Shown: piece after piece, positions 35,636 to 47,919 of the stretch
Numbering within the stretch: position 1 is the first letter of the stretch
Layout: each line of letters begins with the position of its first letter
Notes under the pieces: model-generated
Told to the model about the DNA's origin: nothing
Databases searched by the model: none
Seen by the model: only the letters and a program-made list of their open reading frames with translations
Program-made: the position numbers and the translations under genes
DNA from: Candidatus Edwardsbacteria bacterium
Lineage (GTDB): Bacteria > Edwardsbacteria > AC1 > EtOH8
Direction of reading: 5' to 3'
Assembly: GCA_018821925.1 (NCBI GenBank)
Contig: JAHJLF010000049.1
Location: 1-48,202, forward strand
DNA: 48,202 nucleotides

Positions 35636-36597
35636 ATCTTCTGTGATTTTTTTCTCCATAACAGGAAAATGAAAAACGGTACGCCCAAAAGGGCGGTAAT
35701 GACGCCAACCGGGATTTCAAAATTTCCGAAGCTTCTGGCCAGAGTGTCCGAGAGGATCAACAGGCTGGCGCCCAACAGTCCGGAAACAGGCAGCAGCCTT
35801 TTATTGTCCGGCCCCGAAATCATCCTTCCCAGATGGGGTACCATCAACCCGATAAAGCCTATCACTCCGGCCAGGGAAACCAGCGCTGCCACCATCAGGG
35901 CGATGATAAAGAACACAGATTTTTTCAGCCGTTCCACCGGAACCCCCATGCTCTGGGCCTGGGCCTCCCCCAGGGTCAGCAAGTTCAGGTTTTTCGACTG
36001 GATCCACAGATAGATAGACCCCGCCACCACCAACACCGAGGCGATGGCTAGCAGGAAGACCGTGTCCCGGGTAAACAGGATCCCCAGATTGCCCATTAAA
36101 ATGTAGATCATATCCTGTAGCTGCCTTCCGGCCAGGGACATCAGCAGCATTATCAGGCCGGAGAAAAAGGCATTGACCACCACGCCGGATAATATCATGG
36201 TCTCTGAAGGAAGCCGCCCGTGGACCCGGGCCAGCCGGTAGACCAAAAAGATGGCGGCCACTCCGAAGGAGAAGGAGAATAACTGCAATGTGAAAGCACC
36301 GACAAGACCGGACGATAGACCCAGGATCAATGCCAAAGCCATGCCGCAGGCCGCTCCGCCGGAAACCCCCAGCAGATATGGTTCGGCCAGGGCATTGCCC
36401 AAAACCGCCTGCAGGGCGGTGCCGGAAACGGCCAGGCCCATCCCCACCAGGGCGCCCAGCAATACCCGTGGCAGCCGGATGGAGGCTATCTCCGGGCTGA
36501 CGAACAGTCCGAATCCACCAGGGCCAAAGGAAAGACCGGCTAAAACTGCCAGGAAAAGTATCAGCGGCGACAGCCAGACTAAATGCTTACTTCTCAT
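35632..36597 (-). CDS. btuC: Cobalamin ABC transporter permease BtuC-like (FecCD family)
   Basis: The product is 321 residues with about ten hydrophobic helices. It carries the FecCD hallmarks RLPRVLLGALVGMGLAVSG, the coupling segment LGEAQAQSMG and GLMVPHLGRM. It forms the transmembrane path for B12 with BtuD and receives it from BtuF. It overlaps the btuF stop by 11 bases and the btuD start by 4. Confidence 0.94.
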   Translation of the reverse strand: MRSKHLVWLSPLILFLAVLAGLSFGPGGFGLFVSPEIASIRLPRVLLGALVGMGLAVSGTALQAVLGNALAEPYLLGVSGGAACGMALALILGLSSGLVGAFTLQLFSFSFGVAAIFLVYRLARVHGRLPSETMILSGVVVNAFFSGLIMLLMSLAGRQLQDMIYILMGNLGILFTRDTVFLLAIASVLVVAGSIYLWIQSKNLNLLTLGEAQAQSMGVPVERLKKSVFFIIALMVAALVSLAGVIGFIGLMVPHLGRMISGPDNKRLLPVSGLLGASLLILSDTLARSFGNFEIPVGVITALLGVPFFIFLLWRKKSQKI

Positions 36598-37486
36598 AAA
36601 ATATTCTATTCAGCTCTTTTAATCCCATAACAGAACGGGGCCCGGCCCGCAGGACAATATCCAGATCCAGGTCGTCGAACACTTTTTTATTCTTGACCGC
36701 CGGGATGTTCTGCCAGCCGATCCTTTCAGATAATCGTTTTTTATCGGTCTGGGGATGGAGTATCAATACAATATCCGGCCGTCGTTGAATGACGATCTCC
36801 GGGTTGATGACAGCATAATCCTGGCCGATATCCGAAACGATATTTTCACCTCCGGCCTGTTCAATCAGCAGCCCTACCAAACCCATGTTGCCGGCGGTCA
36901 TCAACGGCTGTGACGAAATCTCGGCATATACCTTGGGCCTTTTGCCCTGCGGGATCACCTCCAGGGAAGATTTTATTTCTCTCAGGGCTGTTCCGATATC
37001 AATCAGCAGGGAATCGGCCACCGCTTGTTTGTTTAAAACCACTGAAAGAAGTTTGATGTCTCGGAAGATATCATCAATGCTGACCGGATTTAAAACCACC
37101 ACCGGGATTTTCAGTGCCTCCAGTTTGGCCAGGATAGGAGTATTCTTCGTTCCCACAATGACAGTCAGGTCGGGTTTTAAAGCCAGGATCCTCTCCAGAT
37201 TGGCGGTGGTAGCGTCGCCAACTATTTCTTTTTCCTTGGTCTGCGGGGGATAATTGCACCAAGCCGTGATGCCGACCAGCTTGTCCTCGGCGTGCAGGGC
37301 GTAGATCATTTCCGTCACATTGGGAGCGAAGGAGATCACCCTGACGGGAGTTTTTGATAATGTAACTGTCCGGCCGATATCGTCGGTTACGGTTAATTTT
37401 TCACCAGAATAAAGCTGTTGGGGTTCCTTTTGACTACAGCTTATAAAAAAGAATGTCGTTATGATAAACAGAAAGGTTTTTTTCAT
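36587..37486 (-). CDS. btuF: Cobalamin-binding lipoprotein BtuF-like
   Basis: The product is 299 residues. The signal ends in a lipobox with C17 (FFFISC), so the protein is a lipoprotein. The body is the class III periplasmic-binding fold: RVISFAPNVTEMIYAL, GITAWCNYPP and a C-terminal lobe (VINPEIVIQRRPDIVLILHP). It delivers corrinoid from the periplasm to BtuC. It is the first gene after the riboswitch. A GGGGGTG stands immediately before the ATG. Confidence 0.92.
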   Translation of the reverse strand: MKKTFLFIITTFFFISCSQKEPQQLYSGEKLTVTDDIGRTVTLSKTPVRVISFAPNVTEMIYALHAEDKLVGITAWCNYPPQTKEKEIVGDATTANLERILALKPDLTVIVGTKNTPILAKLEALKIPVVVLNPVSIDDIFRDIKLLSVVLNKQAVADSLLIDIGTALREIKSSLEVIPQGKRPKVYAEISSQPLMTAGNMGLVGLLIEQAGGENIVSDIGQDYAVINPEIVIQRRPDIVLILHPQTDKKRLSERIGWQNIPAVKNKKVFDDLDLDIVLRAGPRSVMGLKELNRIFYEK

Positions 37487-37497
37487 ACACCCCCAAT

Positions 37498-37532
37498 TTA
37501 AAAGACTCGAACCTTATGAAAAGATTCGAGCC
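37498..37532 (-). terminator. Riboswitch-controlled attenuator hairpin
   Basis: On the minus strand the arms GGCTCGAA (37532-37525) and TTCGAGTC (37511-37504) form an 8-bp stem with one G-U pair, followed by TTTT. It lies between the aptamer and btuF. Confidence 0.7.
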
Positions 37533-37589
37533 TTGACCTTAAAACAAATCAAGCCCGACCTTTTCCCTCGAAGGTCCGGTAAATATTGT

Positions 37590-37762
37590 GTCAAGGCCGG
37601 TCTCCTGGCTTGCCCGGATCATAAGCGCCTTCCCGTGGTAACAGTGGCATTATGCTTATATCCATTATTTGGGCTTACAGTTGCGGGGCAGCTCCCGATT
37701 TTCTAAAAAATTCAGAGCACGGGATTCCCGATTATCTCCCTTAAATTAGGGAGCACCTTAAC
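37590..37762 (-). promoter_or_regulatory. Cobalamin riboswitch aptamer
   Basis: On the minus strand the conserved parts occur in order: AAGGTGC entry, GGGAATCCCGTG, GAGCTGCCCCGCAACTGTA, the B12 box ATGCCACTG, CGGGAAGGCG, and the closing GATCCGGGCAAGCCAGGAGACCGGC split over the 3' side. P1 closes with GTTAAGG (37762-37756) and CCTTGAC (37596-37590). It senses adenosyl- or methylcobalamin and precedes the B12 uptake operon. Confidence 0.96.
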
Positions 37763-37769
37763 AAACGAG

Positions 37770-37798
37770 ATTATATAAGAAATATTAAATTATGTCAA
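37770..37798 (-). promoter_or_regulatory. Promoter of the cobalamin operon
   Basis: On the minus strand TTGACA (37798-37793), 17 bases, TATAAT (37775-37770). The start point falls at the first base of the riboswitch. Confidence 0.85.
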
Positions 37799-37812
37799 GG
37801 ATACTAAAATTG

Positions 37813-37829
37813 GGCTGCCAGATGCAGCC
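37813..37829 (-). terminator. Probable terminator after tRNA-Ser(CGA)
   Basis: Hairpin GGCTGC / GCAGCC with loop ATCTG, followed on the minus strand by CAATTTTAG. The T tract is imperfect. Confidence 0.5.
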
Positions 37830-37860
37830 TGCTGATTATTTTGCCCATTTGGGCGTAGTC

Positions 37861-37953
37861 TGGCGGAGAGTCAGGGATTTGAACCCCGGATCCCGTTCAT
37901 CACGGAATACACGATTTCGAGTCGTGCGCCTTCAGCCGCTCGGCCAACTCTCC
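37861..37953 (-). tRNA. tRNA-Ser (anticodon CGA), CCA encoded
   Basis: On the minus strand: acceptor GGAGAGT / ACTCTCC, discriminator G, encoded CCA. Anticodon arm CACGA-CTCGAAA-TCGTG gives anticodon CGA. The long variable arm is present. It lies 32 bases after the tadA stop codon and may be cotranscribed with it. Confidence 0.96.
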
Positions 37954-37985
37954 GCTTGTAGATAATGGTATTTGGATAACAGATT

Positions 37986-38456
37986 TCAGGGGTTTTGAGA
38001 ACGGCGTTTTTTAAAGAAATCTTTTAATAGCTGCGAGGCCTCTTTGTCCATTACGGCCCGCTCCACCTTGATCCGGTGGTTGAGGCGCTTATCCTCGACG
38101 ATATTGAAAACCGAGCCGCAGGCCCCGGCCTTGGAATCCGAAGCCGCAAAGGCCAGCCGGTCAATGCGGGCCAGCACCATGGCTCCGGCGCACATGGAGC
38201 AAGGCTCTAAAGTTACATACAGAGTGCAGCCGGTCAGCCGCCAGCGGCCCAGTTTTTTAGCAGCCTGCTTGAGGGCAATAAGCTCGGCATGCCGGGAGGC
38301 GTCTTTTTGAGCTTCCACCTGATTCCAGCCTCTTCCGATGATCTTATAATCATGAACGACCACGGCCCCCACCGGGACTTCATTGTTCAGGGCCGCCTTT
38401 TGGGCCAGCTTCAGGGCCCGTTGCATGAAATATGTATCGCTATGTTTCTTTTGCAT
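37986..38456 (-). CDS. tadA: tRNA-specific adenosine deaminase TadA
   Basis: The product is 156 residues. Zinc/catalytic motif HAE (H56, E58) and PCSMC (C86, C89) are those of the TadA deaminase fold; VPVGAVVV and LTGCTLYVTLEP are family landmarks. It deaminates A34 of tRNA-Arg(ACG) to inosine so that one tRNA can read CGU, CGC and CGA. The substrate tRNA gene lies directly upstream on the same strand: its CCA ends 7 bases before this ATG, leaving no room for a ribosome site outside the tRNA. Confidence 0.95.
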   Translation of the reverse strand: MQKKHSDTYFMQRALKLAQKAALNNEVPVGAVVVHDYKIIGRGWNQVEAQKDASRHAELIALKQAAKKLGRWRLTGCTLYVTLEPCSMCAGAMVLARIDRLAFAASDSKAGACGSVFNIVEDKRLNHRIKVERAVMDKEASQLLKDFFKKRRSQNP

Positions 38457-38463
38457 AATAAAA

Positions 38464-38540
38464 TGGTACGCCCGAGAGGATTCGAACCTCTAACCTACGG
38501 ATTCGTAGTCCGTTGCTCTATCCAGTTGGGCTACGGGCGC
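38464..38540 (-). tRNA. tRNA-Arg (anticodon ACG), CCA encoded
   Basis: On the minus strand: acceptor GCGCCCG / CGGGCGT (first pair G-U), discriminator A, CCA. Anticodon arm ACGGA-CTACGAA-TCCGT gives anticodon ACG. T arm AGAGG... reads GGTTCGAATCC. This is the tRNA whose A34 TadA converts to inosine. Confidence 0.97.
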
Positions 38541-38552
38541 ACTTCAATGGCA

Positions 38553-38582
38553 ATTATAACCATTAAATGGCATTCAAGTCAA
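38553..38582 (-). promoter_or_regulatory. Promoter of the tRNA-Arg-tadA unit
   Basis: On the minus strand TTGACT (38582-38577), 18 bases, consensus TATAAT (38558-38553), 12 bases before the tRNA. Confidence 0.8.
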
Positions 38583-38635
38583 GATGTTTGATAAAGATGA
38601 TATTCCGGCATACTAATTTGTTTTGAAATTAATGT

Positions 38636-38664
38636 TTGTCAAATTAAAGATTTTATAGTATATT
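38636..38664 (+). promoter_or_regulatory. Promoter of the glycosyltransferase-like gene
   Basis: TTGTCA (38636-38641), 17 bases, TATATT (38659-38664), about 40 bases before the first ATG. Confidence 0.6.
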
Positions 38665-38707
38665 AAACAAAGGATAAAGATCATTTTACAGCCAGGAAAA
38701 GAGACCT

Positions 38708-39694
38708 ATGAAAATAAGTCCTAAAATATTCCTGCTGTCATCTCTCTTGATGTATACGCTTATCATCACAGCCCATGGGAGGAAAACTATGGAGAATATC
38801 GTTTTTGCCACCTTTGCCCAGGATGAATCCGAACTGGAACAGGCTCTGGTGCTGGCCAGGAGCCTGCGCACTTTTGGCGGAGATATGAAAGAGGCGCCAT
38901 TCTGGCTATACCTTCCGGCCGAATCACCCGAACTGGCGGGGAAGATCGGCGATAGGTCAGCGCCGCTGAATATCAAGGTGCGGACATCCGCCACTCCCGA
39001 AGCGGCCATGGATTACTATTATTCCGGCAAGACCTTCGCCGCCGGCAATGCCGAAGGGGCCGCCGCCGGGAATTTTAAGGTACTGGCCTGGCTGGATGCC
39101 GATAATGTCATCGTCCGGGAGCCGAAGGATTTTCTTATAAAAGACGGGGTTTGCTTCGGCTGGCGGCCGGTGATGCTCAAACTGATCGGTTCGGCCTATA
39201 ATCAGCCGCCCGACGAATTCTGGTCACGATTGTACGCTAAACTCTCCGTAAAGCCGGAAGCGATCTTTCCCGTAACCACGCCGGTGGATAACGAGCAGAT
39301 AAGGGCATATTTCAATGCCGGGATACTGATAGTCCGGCCCGATCGGGGGATCCTGCGAAAATGGCCGGTATTCTATGAAAAGCTATATTCCGATCCATTC
39401 TATCAGGATGAAAGCAAAAAGGATATTAAAAAAAACATCTTCCTGCACCAGACGGCCCTGGCTGGGGCGGTGCTGAATATGCTCAACCGGGATGAGATGG
39501 TCTGTTTCGACGACAGGCACAATTATCCCTTCTTCTTTTTTGAGAAATACCCAGCCCACAAACAACTGAAATCGCTGGATGATGCCGTTACCATCCGACA
39601 TGATGGAGTGATGTATCGAGATAAGGGCTGGAGGGATAAGATGGCGGATACCTCAAAGATCGCCCAGTGGGTAAAAAGTCAATTCTCTCAATAA
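38708..39694 (+). CDS. Glycosyltransferase-like protein (GT-A type DxD), two possible starts
   Basis: The product is 328 residues. The core resembles a nucleotide-sugar-dependent GT-A fold: VFATFAQDESELEQALVLA, the DxD-like D130-x-D132 in AWLDADNVIV, a later YFNAGILIVRP segment and an acidic C-terminal part (FDDRHNYPFFFF). From the first ATG the protein starts with a signal-peptide-like stretch (KIFLLSSLLMYTLIITA). An in-frame ATG at 38789 has a strong GGGAGG 6 bases upstream and would give a cytoplasmic 301-residue enzyme starting MENIVFATF. Both starts are plausible. Donor and acceptor are unknown. The family assignment rests on the DxD and fold pattern only. Confidence 0.65.
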   Translation: MKISPKIFLLSSLLMYTLIITAHGRKTMENIVFATFAQDESELEQALVLARSLRTFGGDMKEAPFWLYLPAESPELAGKIGDRSAPLNIKVRTSATPEAAMDYYYSGKTFAAGNAEGAAAGNFKVLAWLDADNVIVREPKDFLIKDGVCFGWRPVMLKLIGSAYNQPPDEFWSRLYAKLSVKPEAIFPVTTPVDNEQIRAYFNAGILIVRPDRGILRKWPVFYEKLYSDPFYQDESKKDIKKNIFLHQTALAGAVLNMLNRDEMVCFDDRHNYPFFFFEKYPAHKQLKSLDDAVTIRHDGVMYRDKGWRDKMADTSKIAQWVKSQFSQ

Positions 39695-39750: not shown

Positions 39751-39757
39751 ATCAAAC

Positions 39758-39806
39758 TGGTGCGCCATAAAGGACTCGAACCTTTGACCCGCTGATTAAG
39801 AGTCAA
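39758..39806 (-). pseudogene. 3' fragment of tRNA-Lys(CTT): island attachment site
   Basis: On the minus strand the sequence runs from inside the anticodon stem (TTGACTCTTAATCAGC, anticodon CTT) through a perfect T arm (AAAGG-TTCGAGT-CCTTT) to acceptor ATGGCGC, discriminator A and CCA. The D arm and the 5' acceptor strand (expected GCGCCAT) are absent. A tRNA 3' half at the point where base composition changes is the standard scar of site-specific integration. The missing 5' side faces the AT-rich region to the right. Confidence 0.8.
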
Positions 39807-40019
39807 ATCTGGGCCTTTTATAGAAGAATTGTGATTTCAAGGAGTTCATAAAAACAGCTTATCAATTCGGGGGTTATAGTATTTTGTTAATTTTGTGGGC
39901 TTTGTTTATTTATACCAGTATTGCTTCAAACATGGCACAAATTTGGCACAAACGCCCCTCCTTAGGATGAGGGGCGAGGCTTGGTTTTAAAAAATAAGAA
40001 AGGTAAAAGAAAGGAATAT

Positions 40020-40136
40020 ATGATCCATAAGACACTTACATTTCTCCAGGAGCATTTACGGGGAGCTGAGAATAAATTGAATCTATTTAAAAGTGGAATA
40101 ATCCGGCTTCAATACCGGGCTATTCTTTTATGTTGA
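40020..40136 (+). CDS. Possible small peptide or gene remnant
   Basis: ATG at 40020 is preceded by AAAGGA and opens 38 codons starting MIHKTLTFLQEHL. The N-terminus has the look of a real helical protein start, but the frame then runs through a terminator-like hairpin and stops. It may be the truncated beginning of a lost island gene. No function can be assigned. Confidence 0.25.
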   Translation: MIHKTLTFLQEHLRGAENKLNLFKSGIIRLQYRAILLC

Positions 40137-40325
40137 CAAAATGAATATAATGAGAGTATGATATATTTTATTAGGATGTTATTATGTTATATCATGATTA
40201 ACGATGTTTTCATTGAAAATTAAAAAGAAAGTAAAATTAAACATCTATAGTTTTGCTTGATATATTAAATTCTTTTTTGGCAAGTAATAGCTATATCGGT
40301 TCAATCATATACAATTGAATTTTGC

Positions 40326-40369: not shown

Positions 40370-41254
40370 GTGGACAAGATGATTTATAACTTCAATAGAA
40401 GAAGCATTAAGAGCGATTATTCGGGATATGAAGAATTAATTAATTTTTTTACAATAACCAGTTCTTTGCAGGCTCAAGATATTCATATTGACTTCAGTAA
40501 TATATTTTTTAATGCTAATCTATGTGCAGTATTAGGAGCAATGTTTGAGGAACTGCAAAAGCGAACGAATAGAATATTTATTCAAAATGTTGATCGAAGA
40601 TTAATAACATTACTTAAGCGGAATAAATTTCTCACTTATTTCGGTAGCCGCGAATTGCCTGATTATTATAAAACAGTTATAAAATACAGCAAGTTCGGTA
40701 TTCATGAATTAAAAATATTTAATGAATACTTGCAAAAAGACTTACTTTCAGCTCAACATATACCACAAATGTCGGAACGACTAACTAAGAAAATTAATGA
40801 AAGTTTACTTGAACTATTTGATAATGCTGTAGCGCATGGTGAATGCGTTAATATTTTTAGCTGCGGTCAATATTATCCCATTCATAAAGCTTTAGATTTT
40901 ACGGTTGTTGATATTGGAACAACTATACAAGAAAATGTGAATAATTATCTGAGAGAAAATTGTTCAGCAACTGAGGCGATTGACTGGGCAGTAAAAGATG
41001 GCAATACTACAAAAATTGGTTCTATTCCGGGTGGCTTGGGGTTATATTTAATACGGGAATTTTTAAAAATCAATAAGGGGAAAATACAAATAATCTCATC
41101 AGATGGTTTTTGGGAAGAAACTAATGGTAAGGTAATAGTGAAAAAATACAGCAATGCTTTCCCAGGAACGATAGTCAACATTGAATTTAATATTGATGAA
41201 AAGTATTATTGTTTTAAATCAGAAATTAATGACATTGAAAACAATTCAACTTAA
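40370..41254 (+). CDS. GHKL ATPase with STAS-like N-terminal region
   Basis: The product is 294 residues from GTG 40370, or 291 from ATG 40379; neither has a ribosome site. The N-terminal half (DIHIDFSNIFFNANLCAVLG ... NVDRRLITLLKRNKFL) has the strand-helix pattern of a STAS-like domain and resembles the next gene's IIDFANIKLLTSIFLNAAIG. The C-terminal half is a histidine-kinase-like ATPase: N box ESLLELFDNAVAHGE, G1 VVDIGTTI and G2 GGLGLYLIREF. There is no HisKA phospho-acceptor domain, so it is not a classical sensor kinase; it is closer to the anti-sigma-kinase type (SpoIIAB/RsbW fold). It is the first gene of a three-gene AT-rich unit with a STAS-like protein and a PIN nuclease. Confidence 0.8.
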   Translation: MDKMIYNFNRRSIKSDYSGYEELINFFTITSSLQAQDIHIDFSNIFFNANLCAVLGAMFEELQKRTNRIFIQNVDRRLITLLKRNKFLTYFGSRELPDYYKTVIKYSKFGIHELKIFNEYLQKDLLSAQHIPQMSERLTKKINESLLELFDNAVAHGECVNIFSCGQYYPIHKALDFTVVDIGTTIQENVNNYLRENCSATEAIDWAVKDGNTTKIGSIPGGLGLYLIREFLKINKGKIQIISSDGFWEETNGKVIVKKYSNAFPGTIVNIEFNIDEKYYCFKSEINDIENNST

Positions 41255-41265
41255 GGATGAAAACA

Positions 41266-41631
41266 ATGTCCGATAAAGAGGAAATACAAATAATAATTTT
41301 TCAAGAAGCTGGTTGCGACGCTGCTGTTTCATACGAGGATGGTAATAATGTTTTTCTTCGTATTGAGCAGGCTTTCACAAACGCTCAAAGTGTTATTATT
41401 GACTTTGCAAATATTAAACTCTTAACTTCAATATTTTTAAATGCCGCAATAGGACAATTGTTTGGTAAATACGATGAGATATATATTCAAACGCATTTAA
41501 AAATAATTAATATATCGGAAGAAGATAATATAACATTTATGAAAGTTATTGAAAGAGCCAAACAATATTTTAATAATAAAAAAAATGATGGGATTGATAG
41601 AAACATCGATAAGGTTATGAATGATGAATAA
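41266..41631 (+). CDS. Small STAS-like protein (DUF4325-like)
   Basis: The product is 121 residues from ATG 41266, which has AAGGA 8 bases upstream; an ATG at 41257 overlaps that site. Core SVIIDFANIKLLTSIFLNAA is the STAS-like strand-turn-helix in which anti-anti-sigma factors carry the phosphorylatable Ser/Thr; several Ser/Thr are available here (L-T-S). The C-terminal 25 residues are Lys/Asn-rich. Its gene overlaps the PIN gene by 11 bases and follows the ATPase gene by 11 bases. A switch partner of the ATPase is the natural reading (inference from SpoIIAA/SpoIIAB-type modules). Confidence 0.7.
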   Translation: MSDKEEIQIIIFQEAGCDAAVSYEDGNNVFLRIEQAFTNAQSVIIDFANIKLLTSIFLNAAIGQLFGKYDEIYIQTHLKIINISEEDNITFMKVIERAKQYFNNKKNDGIDRNIDKVMNDE

Positions 41632-42190
41632 TTGTCATGATATTCGCAGATATAGCCCCAAGAATGATGACAGATTTATTTTAGATACAAATATCTGGGC
41701 TTATCTGTATTGCAATGTGCCTGCAAAGAAATATTTTATACGAGAGTATAGTGGATTTTTTAAGAAAATCATAAATTCTGGTGCATCAATATTTATTTCG
41801 TCGTTAATATTGTCAGAGTTTATTAAAATATACCATCAAATCGAGTTTGAGTATTTAAAATTAAAGGATCCAATGAAATATGTAAACTATAAATCTGACT
41901 ATCGTAATACTCATGATTATTGTGTAGCAATGAAAGGCGTGAAGAATGTTTTGACCAACAATATAATGAAATGTGCAAAACCTATTGATGATAAATTCAA
42001 ATCGATTACTATAGAGCAGTTAATAGATGATGTCGAGAATTGTGATTTTAATGACAAATATCATGCGATTTTAGCAAAAATTGAAAATTTATCACTTGTT
42101 ACTAATGATGGCGATTATCAAAGTAAATCAATTAATAATATAAATATACCGATATATACATGCAACGATAAACTACTAAAGCCGAAATAA
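41621..42190 (+). CDS. PIN-domain nuclease-like protein
   Basis: The product is 189 residues. PIN-type acidic residues are in place: D22 (FILDTNIWAYLY), E66 (LILSEFIK), D142/D145 (CDFNDKYHAI) and D163/D165 (VTNDGD). It is longer than VapC toxins (about 130) because of an insert between E66 and D142. PIN proteins cut RNA, often tRNA or mRNA, in toxin-antitoxin and defence systems. AAGG lies 6 bases before the ATG, and the start lies inside the end of the STAS-like gene, so translation is coupled. No VapB-like antitoxin is next to it; the two upstream genes would have to hold it in check. Confidence 0.8.
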   Translation: MMNNCHDIRRYSPKNDDRFILDTNIWAYLYCNVPAKKYFIREYSGFFKKIINSGASIFISSLILSEFIKIYHQIEFEYLKLKDPMKYVNYKSDYRNTHDYCVAMKGVKNVLTNNIMKCAKPIDDKFKSITIEQLIDDVENCDFNDKYHAILAKIENLSLVTNDGDYQSKSINNINIPIYTCNDKLLKPK

Positions 42191-42450
42191 CTATTTGATT
42201 TTTATAATATACCATATATCGGATTAAGCCTTAATATTGCTCGACATTGGTGCTATTATATCGATAATGAGATTGACCCTCATATTGTACCATGTGTATC
42301 TTTAGGTTAGTTGAGAAAGATGAATATGCTATTATTAGTCACTTTATATAAAGGTGATAAGGAATGTTCGGATTTGGAGTAAGATATAAGAAGCCGCAAT
42401 TAAATTGCGGCTTCGGTGATATCAGGGTATCTTTTTAAAGACGATTATTT
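42191..42450 (+). other. Intergenic stretch after the PIN gene
   Basis: No gene with a start codon is visible. The PIN frame stays open for 39 codons beyond its TAA (to the TAG ending at 42310). An 11-bp perfect hairpin GAAGCCGCAAT / ATTGCGGCTTC at 42390-42414 lacks an immediate T tract but may end the PIN unit. Confidence 0.5.
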
Positions 42451-44010
42451 ATGAAACTATCCGACATTTGCTTCGAGTGGCACCTTGCTAATAAAGTTAG
42501 TAAAGTTTTGATTCAGGAGTGTGTTGATCTCTTTTCTGCACACTATGGTATATGGGGGAAGACGGCACCTTATGGCTTAACTCCTGGAGAGCGAGTCCGT
42601 CTCTCCCCGAAGCGGATGAGTGCTCTTTTGACTGGCCCTGATACTTGGCTTGCTCTCGCGCGTCACGAAGACTACCTGGTTGGTTACGCTGTTGCAGTTC
42701 AGGCCATCGTTCCGGATAAAGGAATCTTGTCGTGGGTTTCACAATTAGTTGTTCATTCAAAATATCAAGGAATGGGTATTGCCAAGAATCTTCTGGCGTC
42801 TGTATATGGATTCTCTGATCACTTTTCGTGGGGGCTTGTCACTGCCAATCCCAAGGCCGTTAGGGCATTGGAGAAGGCAACTCGACGTAGAGTGGACCCA
42901 TCTATGGTATATACACATTCAGACTTGCTAAGGGCGTTCGCCAAAGAACACGTTCCATATGTTGGTGAAGGTATTTTTCGTTGTGATGAGACTCGATCTG
43001 TTGTAGACACATCCTTCCATCTCGATCTCGACGAACTTGACTCTCTTATTATGGCAACGTCCGATGTGAGTAAGGAGCCATGGAAATTGGGTGAGCTTGA
43101 AGCCGGAGAAGAGTGGATAGCGTTTACCTTCAACGAACAAAAGCCGTTTCCAATTACTTGCTCAGACCTTGACATACTTCTCCAGCATTCCGAACAAAAG
43201 CTATGGCAAGCTTTCGAACGCATGACGCTTGACGACAACCATCGTTGGATGAAATTCGCTGCGGAAGAGGTCAAATACCTAATGGAGACCTACGAAATAT
43301 GTCCAGGCTCTCGAATTCTTGATCTTGGTTGTGGTACGGGTCGCCATTCCCTCGAAATGGCCAGGATGGGGATGGACGTCATTGGAGTTGATTTTATTAC
43401 AATGTTTATTCAAAAGGCTAAAGAAAGAGCGGCCATACAAAAACTTCACTCTTGCTCCTTCTATATTGGTGACGTGCGAAATCTTGACTTTGATCATACA
43501 AGGTTCGATGTTGTACTTGCTCTATACGACGTCGTTGGATCCTTTGCAAGCGAAGAAGAGAATATGGCAATTTTAAGGACTATTGTGAATCGATTGACTC
43601 CTGGTGGCCTTGCAGTAATTTCAGTGATGAATATGCACCGAACCGAGCATAACGCACTTTTCCGTGCTTCATTGAGAGATAATCCAGAAGAACTCTTCCG
43701 TCTTCCTCCAAGTAGCACGATGGAGTCGTCTGGAAATGTATTTGATCCGAGATACTATCTAGTAGATTCTTATTCTGGCGTTGTCTATCGTCGGGAGCAG
43801 TTTAGTCGTGGAGAGCAGCTTCCAACCGAGATTATTGTGCGTGATAAGCGATATACAAGGGAATCCATTGCTAGTCTTGTGAGGGAGAGTGGTCTTGAGA
43901 TCCTTAACGTTCGATATGTTCGCGCAGGTCAATTCGATAAGGAAATAGACCCCGTGAAAGCCAAAGAAATATTGGTAATAGCAAGGTCTCCAGTAATAAA
44001 AAACGTTTGA
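42451..44010 (+). CDS. GNAT acetyltransferase-SAM methyltransferase fusion
   Basis: The product is 519 residues. An N-terminal GNAT domain covers about 1-170 with the acetyl-CoA loop at Q106-G-M-G (VVHSKYQGMGIAKNLL). A linker of about 100 residues contains a WMKFAAEE helix. A class I methyltransferase domain follows from about 280 with motif I LDLGCGTGRHS at about 290, acidic VIGVDF, a GDVRNLDF loop and TPGGLAVISVM. The C-terminus ends in a strand (ILVIARSPV). Substrates are unknown; the fusion suggests two modifications of one substrate. Codon use and GC content are clearly higher than in both neighbours, so it probably joined the island separately. The ribosome site is weak. Confidence 0.85.
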   Translation: MKLSDICFEWHLANKVSKVLIQECVDLFSAHYGIWGKTAPYGLTPGERVRLSPKRMSALLTGPDTWLALARHEDYLVGYAVAVQAIVPDKGILSWVSQLVVHSKYQGMGIAKNLLASVYGFSDHFSWGLVTANPKAVRALEKATRRRVDPSMVYTHSDLLRAFAKEHVPYVGEGIFRCDETRSVVDTSFHLDLDELDSLIMATSDVSKEPWKLGELEAGEEWIAFTFNEQKPFPITCSDLDILLQHSEQKLWQAFERMTLDDNHRWMKFAAEEVKYLMETYEICPGSRILDLGCGTGRHSLEMARMGMDVIGVDFITMFIQKAKERAAIQKLHSCSFYIGDVRNLDFDHTRFDVVLALYDVVGSFASEEENMAILRTIVNRLTPGGLAVISVMNMHRTEHNALFRASLRDNPEELFRLPPSSTMESSGNVFDPRYYLVDSYSGVVYRREQFSRGEQLPTEIIVRDKRYTRESIASLVRESGLEILNVRYVRAGQFDKEIDPVKAKEILVIARSPVIKNV

Positions 44011-44367
44011 ACTAAAACCCGTTTGACGTGATATTCTCGTGCAATTTGGCCTACCCGCTTCGGAAAAAAAGACTAAAAGAAACAACAACAAGTATTACTA
44101 GAATTCGATATATTATGATCAATTTTAACTCAGCACGATAGCGATCAATAAATTATCATATCCTATCCGGAGACTTATAGTTGTTTGGATATAGAGCAAA
44201 CAGTACATTGCTGTAAGGCTAAATTATATTTTATTTATTGTTGACAGATACTAAATATAGTGATAATATTACCGTTATCGTTCTGTTTAGATATTAATCT
44301 GGGAGACCATCAGCTTAGTTTTATTATAATTTTTTTATAAAACATATTGATTTAAAAGATCATCACA
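44011..44367 (+). other. Intergenic region with promoter of the nucleotide-enzyme unit
   Basis: No gene is visible in these 357 bases. The first 60 keep the composition of the methyltransferase gene, then the sequence becomes very AT-rich. It contains the promoter at 44241-44269 and a leader of about 90 bases. Confidence 0.6.
44241..44269 (+). promoter_or_regulatory. Promoter of the deoxyribosyltransferase-dGTPase-radical SAM unit
   Basis: TTGACA (44241-44246), 17 bases, TAATAT (44264-44269). The start point would be about 90 bases before the first ATG. Confidence 0.7.
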
Positions 44368-44748
44368 ATGGATAAAGAAATCAAATATATATACCTAGCA
44401 CATCCATTTACTGACAATTATGAATATAATATTAAAAGAGTGACTGCTATAGCAAATGCTATTGTAAAACATTCGATAGATAATCCAGATTGTTTTTTTG
44501 CTCCTATAGTTCCACATTTAATTTTATCGGTGTTTAATGAGGAGAAGGACAATTCCGTAAGATCATACACAGAAGAAATAAGTAAAAATTTAGTACTTTT
44601 CTGTGACGAATTATGGCTTGTTTCAGATATCATCTCAAAGGGTATGCAGTTAGAAATACAATCAGCTCAGGAAAACACCATACCTATAAGAAAATGGTCA
44701 GAAATTAAATTAATAGTACCTATACTATGTCAATTTGATAATATTTAA
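44368..44748 (+). CDS. Nucleoside 2-deoxyribosyltransferase-like protein (DUF4406-like)
   Basis: The product is 126 residues. The pattern IYLAHPF, ANAIVKHS, FFAPIVPHLIL, a short polar stretch, then CDELWLVSDIISKGMQLEIQ and a final IPI strand is that of the nucleoside 2-deoxyribosyltransferase / DUF4406 fold. In that fold an acidic residue attacks the deoxyribose of a nucleoside or nucleotide (compare DNPH1-type hydrolases). The Glu in GMQLEIQ is the likely nucleophile. It is the first gene of a tight three-gene unit, 24 bases before the dGTPase-like gene. Confidence 0.75.
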   Translation: MDKEIKYIYLAHPFTDNYEYNIKRVTAIANAIVKHSIDNPDCFFAPIVPHLILSVFNEEKDNSVRSYTEEISKNLVLFCDELWLVSDIISKGMQLEIQSAQENTIPIRKWSEIKLIVPILCQFDNI

Positions 44749-44772
44749 CTTGTTATTATTTTAAGGAATAAA

Positions 44773-46125
44773 ATGTCTTATCTTGAGATAGAAAAAATTA
44801 AAGAAAAAAATATTGTTCCATGGGCCGCAACGTGCGAGAAATATAATAATGATCCTGATGAAAGAAGAAGTGCATTTAAACATGATGAGGATGAGTTTAT
44901 TTATTCATCTGCGTTACGTAGACTTGCGGATAAAACCCAAATAGTGGTTAAGCCAGAATTTGTTGAGCAATACCGATCTAGATTAACGCATACTTTAGAG
45001 GTACAGCAAATAGCAGAAAGTATAGGTTCACATCTTTCCTTAAATAATGAACTTATTAATGCTATTGCGTGTGGTCATGATTTGGGCCATTGCCCATATG
45101 GCCATGCAGGAGAAAGAGCCATACAAGGAATATTTAAAGCGAATATACTACCGTTATGTGATCTTGGGAAACTTAAAATTAATTTAACAGAAGCATTATA
45201 TTTTTACAATATAAAGGTAAAAATAAAGCGTGAAATACAACCATATTATTTATTTCACCATGCTGTTAATTCGGTTAGAATAATCGAAAGGAAGATGAAA
45301 GGTATAGGATTTATAACAAAAAGGGGAATTATTACTCATAGTTGGAGTCCATGGCAGAATCAAAGCAAAATAAAATATGGTATCCCAGATACACTTGAGG
45401 CACAAGCTGTTGCTATAGCTGATCAGATTGCTGGTATAAATCATGATACCGAGGATATTTTAAATTGTAAGGAATCAGATTATGATATTGATAAAATAAA
45501 AAAAGCCGGATCAAAACATATAGATAATAAGGGTTATTTGAAATATTCTGATGCGTATGCGATATTCAACGAATGGTTTTTAACAACGGAATCTACTCAT
45601 ATAAATGGATGGGGGCGTAAAAAAAGGTTAAGAAATATAATCAATAGTGTTATTGATTACTCTTCGGATGAGATTTACAAATATTATATTGCAAAGGAAC
45701 CAAGAAGATATGGAGAAGAACCTGTACTTCAATTAGATAAAAACATTAAATCTTTCTTATCTGGATATGAGTCTTTTATCCGTAGCGAAATAATACAAGT
45801 AAAGAATTGTTTTAAACAAAGAGACGCACAGGCAGAAGCTGAAATAGGAACGGCATTTAATTTTTTTAAAATAAGAGATGAAAATGATCAAACAAATATT
45901 AAGGAAAAGGAGAAAGAGTGCATAAATGCATTTAAATTATCGATAAGCGATGATAGATATAACGAGGATAAAATATTTATTGCTTTTATAAATAGTTTAA
46001 AAAAACATAATGGAGATAAATTACGACATTACCTTGAGATAATTGATTTTGTGTGTGGTATGACAGACACATATTTGCATAAAATCATAGGTATTGCCAA
46101 TGAGCAGTTCAATAACAGTAAATAA
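44773..46125 (+). CDS. HD-domain dNTP triphosphohydrolase (dGTPase-like)
   Basis: The product is 450 residues, AAGGA 5 bases before the ATG. The dGTPase family features are present: FIYSSALRRLADKTQI, metal ligand H73 in SRLTHTLEV, H102-D103 in CGHDLGHCPYGHAGE, a later ligand Asp in EAQAVAIADQIAGINHD, and the family's aromatic FHHAVNSVRI. Such enzymes hydrolyse dGTP (or other dNTPs) to the nucleoside and triphosphate. Homologues limit phage and viral replication by draining dNTPs. Here the gene is an AT-rich island gene between a deoxyribosyltransferase-like and an RlmN-like gene, unlike a housekeeping dgt. Confidence 0.88.
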   Translation: MSYLEIEKIKEKNIVPWAATCEKYNNDPDERRSAFKHDEDEFIYSSALRRLADKTQIVVKPEFVEQYRSRLTHTLEVQQIAESIGSHLSLNNELINAIACGHDLGHCPYGHAGERAIQGIFKANILPLCDLGKLKINLTEALYFYNIKVKIKREIQPYYLFHHAVNSVRIIERKMKGIGFITKRGIITHSWSPWQNQSKIKYGIPDTLEAQAVAIADQIAGINHDTEDILNCKESDYDIDKIKKAGSKHIDNKGYLKYSDAYAIFNEWFLTTESTHINGWGRKKRLRNIINSVIDYSSDEIYKYYIAKEPRRYGEEPVLQLDKNIKSFLSGYESFIRSEIIQVKNCFKQRDAQAEAEIGTAFNFFKIRDENDQTNIKEKEKECINAFKLSISDDRYNEDKIFIAFINSLKKHNGDKLRHYLEIIDFVCGMTDTYLHKIIGIANEQFNNSK

Positions 46126-46152
46126 TAAAAAGGTTATTATATTATAATAAAT

Positions 46153-47061
46153 ATGGGTACATTGACAAATTATAAAATATCTTCTGACGGTTCGAAGAAA
46201 TATATTTGGGAAACAGAGGATGGCTTGCATTATGAATCCGCTCTGGTTGATTTAGATTATAGAACCCCAAATAAAGTAATTTGCGTATCATCAGCTATCG
46301 GTTGTACTATAGGTTGTAAGTTTTGCAAAACAGGGCAAAAATACCATAGAAATTTAAATAATAGAGAAATCATTGAACAAATAGAAAATATTATACAACA
46401 TGATAGACTAAAAAGTGCATCATCTTCTAAAATGTTCGAAATTAGTTTTATGGCGATGGGTGAACCCCTTTTGAATTACAATAATCTAATAAAAACATTC
46501 GATTGGCTTGGAAAAGAGTATGGTGATAATCTTGAAGTAACGGTATCTACTGCAGGCCTAGTAAATAAAATATATGAACTTGCTGAACTAAATTATCCTT
46601 TTAGTATCGATTTGCAGATATCATTACATTCTACTGATCAGTATTTGAGAAATAAGTTAATGCCAGGTTTAAGAGACAATATTAAAGATATTATTAATGC
46701 ATCTGAATATTATGCTAGGAAGGTTAAAAGAAAGGTCTGCATTAATTACTTATTGCTTAATAATGTTAATGATAGTGAGAAAGAGCTAAGGGCCTTACAT
46801 AAATTATTGAACCCAAAATATCATTATGTAAAATTATCAGAAATAAATTCTAATAGCTCACACTTTAGTAAGCCTCCCGATAGCAAATATAAAATATTTT
46901 ATAATTTCCTTTTAAGTAAAAATATTGAGACAAAATTGTTTAAAAGCAAAGGTGTTGACATCGGAGCTGGATGTGGGCAATTATCTGCAGCAGAGGATAT
47001 AAGGTTAACATCTTTAAATTATAATAGAACAAATTCGAAGAAAATCAATACAGTATTTTAA
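46153..47061 (+). CDS. Short RlmN/Cfr-family radical SAM methyltransferase
   Basis: The product is 302 residues. The radical SAM cluster motif is C51-x3-C55-x2-C58 (GCTIGCKFC). The RlmN/Cfr-specific pieces are also present: C44 in ICVSSAIGC, the GMGEP-like AMGEPLLN, LQISLHS and the methyl-carrying C274 in GAGCGQL. Both mechanistic cysteines of the family are therefore kept and the enzyme should methylate an adenine in RNA (C2 or C8). It lacks the N-terminal accessory domain (about 80-90 residues) that RlmN uses to bind 23S rRNA/tRNA, so its target may differ. It begins 27 bases after the dGTPase-like gene with no close ribosome site. Confidence 0.85.
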   Translation: MGTLTNYKISSDGSKKYIWETEDGLHYESALVDLDYRTPNKVICVSSAIGCTIGCKFCKTGQKYHRNLNNREIIEQIENIIQHDRLKSASSSKMFEISFMAMGEPLLNYNNLIKTFDWLGKEYGDNLEVTVSTAGLVNKIYELAELNYPFSIDLQISLHSTDQYLRNKLMPGLRDNIKDIINASEYYARKVKRKVCINYLLLNNVNDSEKELRALHKLLNPKYHYVKLSEINSNSSHFSKPPDSKYKIFYNFLLSKNIETKLFKSKGVDIGAGCGQLSAAEDIRLTSLNYNRTNSKKINTVF

Positions 47062-47079
47062 TTATATGAGTATTGATTT

Positions 47080-47919
47080 ATGAGAAAAATTCTCTTCTAT
47101 ATTATTTCCCTCCTCTCTTTTTCCCTTCTAAACGCCCAACAAGAAGCAACAACATCTGATGGAAAGAAAGTAATCCTCTTTGAGGATGGAACCTGGCAAT
47201 ATGCTGTTTACATTACTGAAATAAAACCCGTACATATTGATTTCCTTGAAATCCCGGAAAATCCCTCTTCTTGCCAAATGGTGGTTCATGCAGGGTATAC
47301 TCTTTCATATAATGAGGAGCATGAGCAGGCCAATTGGGTGGCTTATGAATTGACTGAGAAAGAGACAGAAGGGAAGCATAAGAGGACGAATAAATTCATT
47401 GTGGATCCGGATATCTCAACTGGATCAGCAACCAGCAAAGATTATAAGAAATCAGGCTATGATCAGGGACATTTAGTGCCGGCCGCGGATATGGCCTGGT
47501 CCCAAACTGCAATGACGGAATCGTTTTATTACAGCAACATGAGTCCCCAGGAACCAAGCTTCAATCGCGGTATTTGGAAGAAGCTGGAAGAACAGGTCAG
47601 GGGGTGGGCAAGAGAGAATAATGCAATATATGTCATTACAGGGCCTGTATTGACTGATGGATTGCCCACCATAGGCCCAAATAAGGTCTCTGTGCCCAAG
47701 TATTATTACAAAGTGATATTGGACTATACTCTCCCCGAAATAAAGGCTATTGGCTTTATAATGCCCAACGCGGGGTCATCAGAGCCATTACAGAGCTACA
47801 CAGTGACTGTGGACAGTGTTGAAAAGTTTACTGGGATAGACTTCTTTTATCGGCTTCCGGATGACCAGGAGAAGATAATAGAAAGTATTCTTGATGTCGG
47901 GGCCTGGTTTAAAGAATAG
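47080..47919 (+). CDS. Exported NucA-type DNA/RNA non-specific endonuclease
   Basis: The product is 279 residues with a signal peptide (about 1-19). A short N-terminal module (DGKKVILFEDGTWQYA) precedes the beta-beta-alpha-metal nuclease: catalytic motif D128-Q-G-H131 (YDQGHLVPAADM, where DRGH is usual), metal-ligand Asn in FNRGIWKKLE (N162) and a typical IYVITGPVL strand. The family cuts DNA and RNA without sequence preference, mostly outside the cell or in the periplasm. Composition is between that of the island and the chromosome. The Gln for Arg in DRGH is a known natural variation. Confidence 0.9.
   Translation: MRKILFYIISLLSFSLLNAQQEATTSDGKKVILFEDGTWQYAVYITEIKPVHIDFLEIPENPSSCQMVVHAGYTLSYNEEHEQANWVAYELTEKETEGKHKRTNKFIVDPDISTGSATSKDYKKSGYDQGHLVPAADMAWSQTAMTESFYYSNMSPQEPSFNRGIWKKLEEQVRGWARENNAIYVITGPVLTDGLPTIGPNKVSVPKYYYKVILDYTLPEIKAIGFIMPNAGSSEPLQSYTVTVDSVEKFTGIDFFYRLPDDQEKIIESILDVGAWFKE

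Follow-up and report, generated by a model that had tools for sequence, protein, structure and literature searches.

A stand-alone anti-phage dGTPase was reportedly described by Tal et al. in 2022, and the known defenses that drain dNTPs are either single genes or, as in Clover, genes accompanied by a nucleotidyltransferase regulator. In Clover, the dGTPase effector CloA is regulated by the nucleotide signal of its partner CloB (PMC12265719). The roles of the cysteines in the two-SAM methyl transfer of RlmN and Cfr have been described (PMC5130265), and Z-phages combine dNTP hydrolases with DmtZ, an enzyme of the nucleoside deoxyribosyltransferase (NDT) family, to install a C2-substituted adenine (PMC12884076).

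We analyzed a locus of a Candidatus Edwardsbacteria bacterium that places a dGTPase-type gene between genes for an NDT-fold protein and an RlmN/Cfr-like radical SAM enzyme. The window is an entire contig of 48,202 nucleotides from a 2.44-Mb draft genome that is 99.4% complete. The features considered are the following:

39758–39804, − strand: displaced 3' half of tRNA-Lys(CTT), att copy at the left boundary of the element (exact 47-nt copy)
39805–40149, no strand: element-side end segment, also present in G003, a genome of the same genus (blastn of 39756–40149 against L278, 394 bp)
44241–44269, + strand: promoter-like site TTGACA-17-TAATAT (10/12 match, TG before the −10 box; not significant alone)
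44368–44748, + strand: gene 1, DUF7768, NDT-fold protein of 126 aa (Pfam, PHROG, fold)
44773–46125, + strand: gene 2, long dGTPase-type HD triphosphohydrolase of 450 aa (NCBIfam, PADLOC, residues)
46153–47061, + strand: gene 3, short RlmN/Cfr-like radical SAM methyl synthase without N-terminal domain, 302 aa (NCBIfam, cysteines, AF2 model, tree)
47080–47919, + strand: secreted DNA/RNA non-specific endonuclease, right flank, a gene of the element outside the trio (PF01223, E 1e-57)

Organization and enzyme families of the trio

The list of open reading frames places the three genes on the + strand, 24 and 27 bp apart, in agreement with the original prediction. Their G+C content is ~30%, compared with 44–55% across most of the adjoining chromosome, and the close spacing and common AT-rich composition suggest co-transcription as an operon. 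The prediction also had one promoter serving all three genes. A + strand site is indeed present at position 44241, and a single promoter driving the trio is plausible, but the AT-rich stretch contains 29 promoter-like matches, not clearly more than the 22.5 expected from shuffling (SD 4.9), additional 9/12 sites fall between and within the genes, and the + strand showed no terminator.

Gene 1 matches the Pfam family DUF7768 (E 3e-16) and PHROG 355, "nucleoside 2-deoxyribosyltransferase" (E 2e-11). The top PDB fold matches of its AlphaFold2 model (20 aligned sequences; pLDDT 87.8) are nucleoside 2'-deoxyribosyltransferases (Foldseek; 8pqr, E 2.8e-4, TM 0.58), followed by DNPH1 (8rpt) and MilB (4jel). 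Searching PDB sequences with the profile of gene 1 gave no NDT; the NDT match came from the fold search only. Glu96, at the position of the nucleophile, is invariant in the alignment of relatives; Tyr9 is present, at a position that is Tyr or Phe in DUF7768 relatives, and the Asp/Asn position is ambiguous. Membership in the NDT superfamily is supported by the fold, and the protein is a predicted hydrolase or transferase. The DUF7768 relatives are phage proteins, often annotated as nucleoside 2-deoxyribosyltransferases, that adjoin DNA polymerase, primase or helicase genes. Their Pfam family is identical to that of gene 1 but, unlike gene 1, they lie in replication modules and have neither a dGTPase nor a radical SAM neighbor. 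A plasmid search produced no match to gene 1.

Gene 2 contains an HD domain (Pfam, E 1e-9) and matches the PADLOC dGTPase (E 5e-42) and the NCBIfam dGTPase models (best E 3e-46), with every NCBIfam score under the curated cut-off (102 bits vs. 400 for the anti-phage dGTPase model NF041026 and 129 vs. 152 for TIGR01353). Because of these low scores, we regard the protein as a divergent long member of the dGTPase-type HD enzymes and a predicted dNTPase. The HD residues H73/H102/D103/D217 and the dyad H111/E114 are conserved, H102/D103 and H111/E114 being invariant in the alignments, and each metal or dyad residue described for CloA and SpdGTPase (PMC12265719) has a counterpart. The closest NCBIfam and PADLOC neighbors include anti-phage dGTPases. 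With the stand-alone type (NF041026, PADLOC dGTPase), gene 2 shares the HD motif, the H/E dyad and the logic of dNTP depletion, but it scores far below the cut-off of that model and has a longer C-terminal part and two partner genes. Gene 2 can be aligned end to end with long dGTPases of three genomes from the Bacillota side and of two viral contigs; these were rejected as further trios, having no NDT or radical SAM neighbor. Separately, a provirus contains a long dGTPase of the size of gene 2 a few kilobases from genes that by eye look RloA/RloB-type (L303:651-6176).

Clover resembles the trio in pairing an HD-type dGTPase effector with a nucleotide-acting partner enzyme in an operon within a mobile or defense context, and its HD motif and HE dyad are present in gene 2 (H102/D103, H111/E114). 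However, the dGTPase of the trio is accompanied by an NDT-fold protein and a radical SAM methyl synthase in place of CloB, and no CloB-like Pol-beta nucleotidyltransferase was matched among the neighboring ORFs at 40370–47919. Activation and inhibition by dTTP/p3diT are features of Clover. Since the partner gene is missing, we do not classify the locus as Clover.

Gene 3 scores 209 bits against the RlmN model TIGR00048 (cut-off 290) and covers model positions 72–349 of 355. As the match begins at position 72, the N-terminal domain is missing; the GC..GC motif is preceded by 49 residues, compared with about 110 in full-length proteins. The CX3CX2C cluster (Cys51/55/58) and the mechanistic Cys44 and Cys274 are conserved, and the AF2 model matches the RlmN structure 6fz6 (E 1e-23). 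Gene 3 thus has the cluster, the methyl-carrier and resolving cysteines and the fold of RlmN and Cfr, but its identity to them is about 36% at best. In a tree of 45 sequences, the 17 sampled phage short RlmN-like proteins formed one group (98/98) and full-length RlmN and Cfr another (100/97), with the gene 3 protein outside both on a long end branch, its exact position uncertain. Judged by the missing domain and this placement, gene 3 is not a simple copy of RlmN or Cfr. The concern raised with the original prediction, that gene 3 could be the only RlmN of the cell, was removed by a full-length RlmN on contig C76 of the same genome (375 bits). As the genome also encodes a second dGTPase elsewhere, we do not consider genes 2 and 3 to be housekeeping copies. 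At the level of families, the prediction was borne out: two genes belong to families acting on deoxynucleotides, and the third retains the adenine-methylating active site. The same genome encodes a third, short RlmN-like protein (L003:1140-2082, on contig C26) that may be catalytically different, since Val replaces the cysteine at the position of RlmN Cys118.

The integrative element and its counterpart in a sister genome

The tRNA half at 39758–39804 has an intact counterpart, tRNA-Lys(CTT), in the same genome (G000:C93:10214-10289), with a tyrosine integrase gene nearby. Two copies of the 47-nt sequence are present in this genome and in G003, and one copy in each of two other genomes of the genus (G001 and G002). 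The orientation of the tRNA half puts the element on its right, including the trio and reaching the contig end; to the left, the chromosome is collinear with G003 (window 36193–39677). Identity to G003 is 87–90% over the initial 0.35 kb of the element (86.5% in the 394-bp blastn match) and from position 47129 to the contig end. The DNA homology at 47129 begins within the endonuclease gene (47080–47919), whose protein is 87% identical in G003.

Between these common flanks, G003 contains a TIR-APAZ gene and a short Argonaute (L278:16263-19122; PADLOC E 3e-64 and 1.5e-167), which by their sequence matches are a SPARTA-type pair, a known phage defense. In the window genome, the same interval holds a GNAT-methyltransferase gene and a HATPase/STAS/PIN cassette in addition to the trio. 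The trio and the SPARTA-type pair share the interval and not an identical position, and other cargo also lies within it. The att duplication, the flanks shared with G003 and the SPARTA-type pair in its interval together are the strongest support for the trio being mobile, defense-type cargo of an integrative element, with one relative compared.

Other contents of these intervals are recorded separately. In the window element, an AT-rich cassette at 40370–42190 encodes HATPase-like, STAS-like DUF4325 (E 1e-13) and PIN-domain (E 2e-6) proteins and is possibly a separate defense or toxin–antitoxin unit. At 42451–44010, a fusion of GNAT and a class I methyltransferase has a weak match to PADLOC mad2 (E 1e-21, in the generic methyltransferase part) and a G+C content of about 45%, unlike the cassettes on either side. 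In G003, a gene beside the SPARTA-type pair (L278:14086-15690) encodes a protein of 534 aa that matches nothing in Pfam or PADLOC. Also in G003, L282:2517-9936 contains a serine recombinase whose C-terminus overlaps a tRNA-Lys att copy, followed by a C5-cytosine DNA methylase and a Vsr endonuclease; it is probable that another element lies here in tandem at the same site.

Relatives of the trio in other genomes and phages

We searched for the gene 2 dGTPase in about 1,230 genomes (thresholds from E 1e-15 to 1e-28). Of these, 10 belong to the phylum, loci led to 22, and the rest are samples of three large phyla (396, 399 and 399 genomes). At E ≤ 1e-20, the gene was absent from nine relatives, three of them of the same genus. 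A motif-anchored alignment scan for gene 3 using the pattern DIG[GA]GCGQ, which the gene 3 protein matches, covered 84,980 species genomes, and no relative that it returned exceeded 37% identity. Single-protein scans of genome contigs and viral contigs gave no match, and an alignment-based scan with gene 3 recovered full-length RlmNs and phage-type short proteins. Searches of phages, plasmids and IMG/VR yielded several hundred loci and revealed no checked locus with two of the three genes. Some apparent relatives of gene 3 were discarded: the plasmid matches were RlmN or cfr relatives of about 30% identity, one apparent Vibrio plasmid match was a frameshifted RlmN, and several gut "phage" matches were housekeeping rlmN genes located in host DNA, one of them adjoining a PrkC-like kinase.

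The expectation that the trio is conserved together in other genomes thus failed within the reach of the search: neither a second trio nor any pair of its genes was found in the ~1,230 genomes, the ~85,000-species motif scan and the several hundred phage and viral loci, although sensitivity is limited by the scans resting on exact short motifs and samples. The trio appears unique or very rare within what was searched, absence not being proof, and its functional linkage rests on one locus, since no second genome has any two of the genes.

Truncated RlmN-like proteins are abundant in large phages (L021-L100, L305-L347), with 191 confirmed in one IMG/VR scan. They share with gene 3 the truncated architecture and a length of about 300 aa, but form a monophyletic clade with the motif IGGGCGQLW (nearly all of 80 retained proteins), whereas gene 3 has IGAGCGQLS and a separate branch. 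Among 80 phage loci, NAMPT and/or NMNAT-Nudix genes were nearby in 17, tRNAs in 12, a macro-domain-like protein (by eye) in 9 and an NDT-like PF15891 protein in 7; some relatives are near tRNA clusters. Counted by cluster, NAD-salvage genes neighbored the short RlmN-like genes in 8 of 40, in large phages and without matched control, and are a hint of little weight toward nucleotide chemistry. Two other short bacterial RlmN-like proteins from the alignment-based scan (L102 and L131) have neighbors unrelated to the trio. One of them (L102:7980-8822) has neighbors that by eye are dioxygenase-like and B12-type radical SAM genes, in a setting resembling a biosynthetic cluster, and the substrates of truncated RlmN-like enzymes may be other than RNA.

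Possible functions of the trio

The enzymatic activities, substrates and defense role of the trio are ones that we infer. With some doubt, we read the trio as horizontally acquired cargo of the element that is most likely a candidate anti-phage operon centered on the gene 2 dGTPase, a variant of the dNTPase-type candidate defenses that is neither Clover nor RlmN/Cfr. Upon infection, the HD enzyme would cut dNTPs into deoxynucleosides and triphosphate, and the NDT-fold protein would remove or exchange the base of a deoxynucleoside or dNMP. This would block salvage of the sugar–base unit and turn the depletion into an irreversible drain from dNTP through deoxynucleoside to free base, an idea suggested by the two nucleotide-directed enzymes in tandem. 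Gene 3 would C2-methylate adenine in a substrate for which the RNA-binding N-terminal domain of RlmN is dispensable, perhaps a small adenine nucleotide setting when the dNTPase is active, or perhaps a tRNA. A small nucleotide is conceivable because RlmN chemistry targets adenine C2 and the RNA-binding domain is missing; the NAMPT, NMNAT and NDT-like neighbors of the phage relatives, an uncontrolled observation, are compatible with it. Precedents for the mechanism are Clover, in which a partner's nucleotide controls the dGTPase effector, and the Z-phages, in which dNTP hydrolases act together with an NDT-family enzyme.

Against a defense role, the trio has no classical sensor or toxin domain. 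The DUF7768 relatives sit in phage replication modules, and gene 1 could represent ordinary phage nucleotide metabolism. Mobile elements also bear non-defense cargo. It is less likely, but deserves to be taken seriously, that the trio consists of element-borne nucleotide-metabolism genes of phage origin without immune role, tuning dNTPs for replication of the element or carried as passengers. The phage DNA polymerase, primase or helicase genes beside DUF7768 homologues, the wide occurrence of short RlmN-like enzymes in large phages and the NAMPT and/or NMNAT-Nudix genes near 17 of the 80 fit such an origin, whereas the setting, a bacterial integrative element with a SPARTA-type system in its counterpart, the absence of replication genes beside the trio and the separation of gene 3 from the sampled phage clade (98/98) do not. 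Rather unlikely, in our view, is that gene 3 acts on its own, without genes 1 and 2, as an accessory RNA methylase, producing m2A at tRNA A37 or 23S A2503 and either shielding phage-targeted RNA or giving drug resistance. Its nearest solved relatives are RlmN and Cfr, all mechanistic cysteines are retained, and 12 of 80 phage relatives have tRNAs in the locus; yet gene 3 lacks the N-terminal domain, branches outside the full-length RlmN and Cfr clade (100/97) and would join a full-length RlmN already in the cell. The missing domain and this placement weaken, without refuting, the original suggestion that gene 3 protects the ribosome.

A joint synthesis of a C2-methyl-adenine deoxynucleotide, with gene 3 methylating, gene 1 adding deoxyribose and gene 2 clearing the competing dNTP, to serve as a decoy nucleotide or DNA base, seems improbable. 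It has a parallel in Z-phages, in which dATP/dGTP hydrolases and DmtZ build a C2-substituted adenine nucleotide (PMC12884076), and both the adenine C2 methylation of RlmN and the loss of the RNA-binding domain would suit it. The hydrolases of Z-phages are Dut-like/DUF5664/DatZ, their route uses PurZ and they have no radical SAM enzyme. For such a synthesis in the trio, the locus has no kinase, polymerase or PurZ-like gene, a literature search turned up no pathway by which a radical SAM enzyme makes free 2-methyladenine nucleotides, and the NDT Tyr, replaceable by Phe in DUF7768, and the ambiguous Asp/Asn position argue against it. Slightly more improbable still is a full pathway in which the trimmed RlmN-type enzyme would C2-methylate adenine in a small nucleotide, the NDT-fold protein would move the base to deoxyribose, the HD dNTPase would remove the normal competitor, and the product would poison or mark phage DNA or act as an immune signal.

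The short RlmN-like enzymes of large phages, which lack the RNA-binding domain, form an unassigned family of interest in its own right. If the candidate anti-phage operon is real, it would bring to the defenses that drain dNTPs a new means of regulation or a new chemistry, in which the dGTPase is accompanied by a radical SAM methyl synthase and by an enzyme that exchanges or removes bases.
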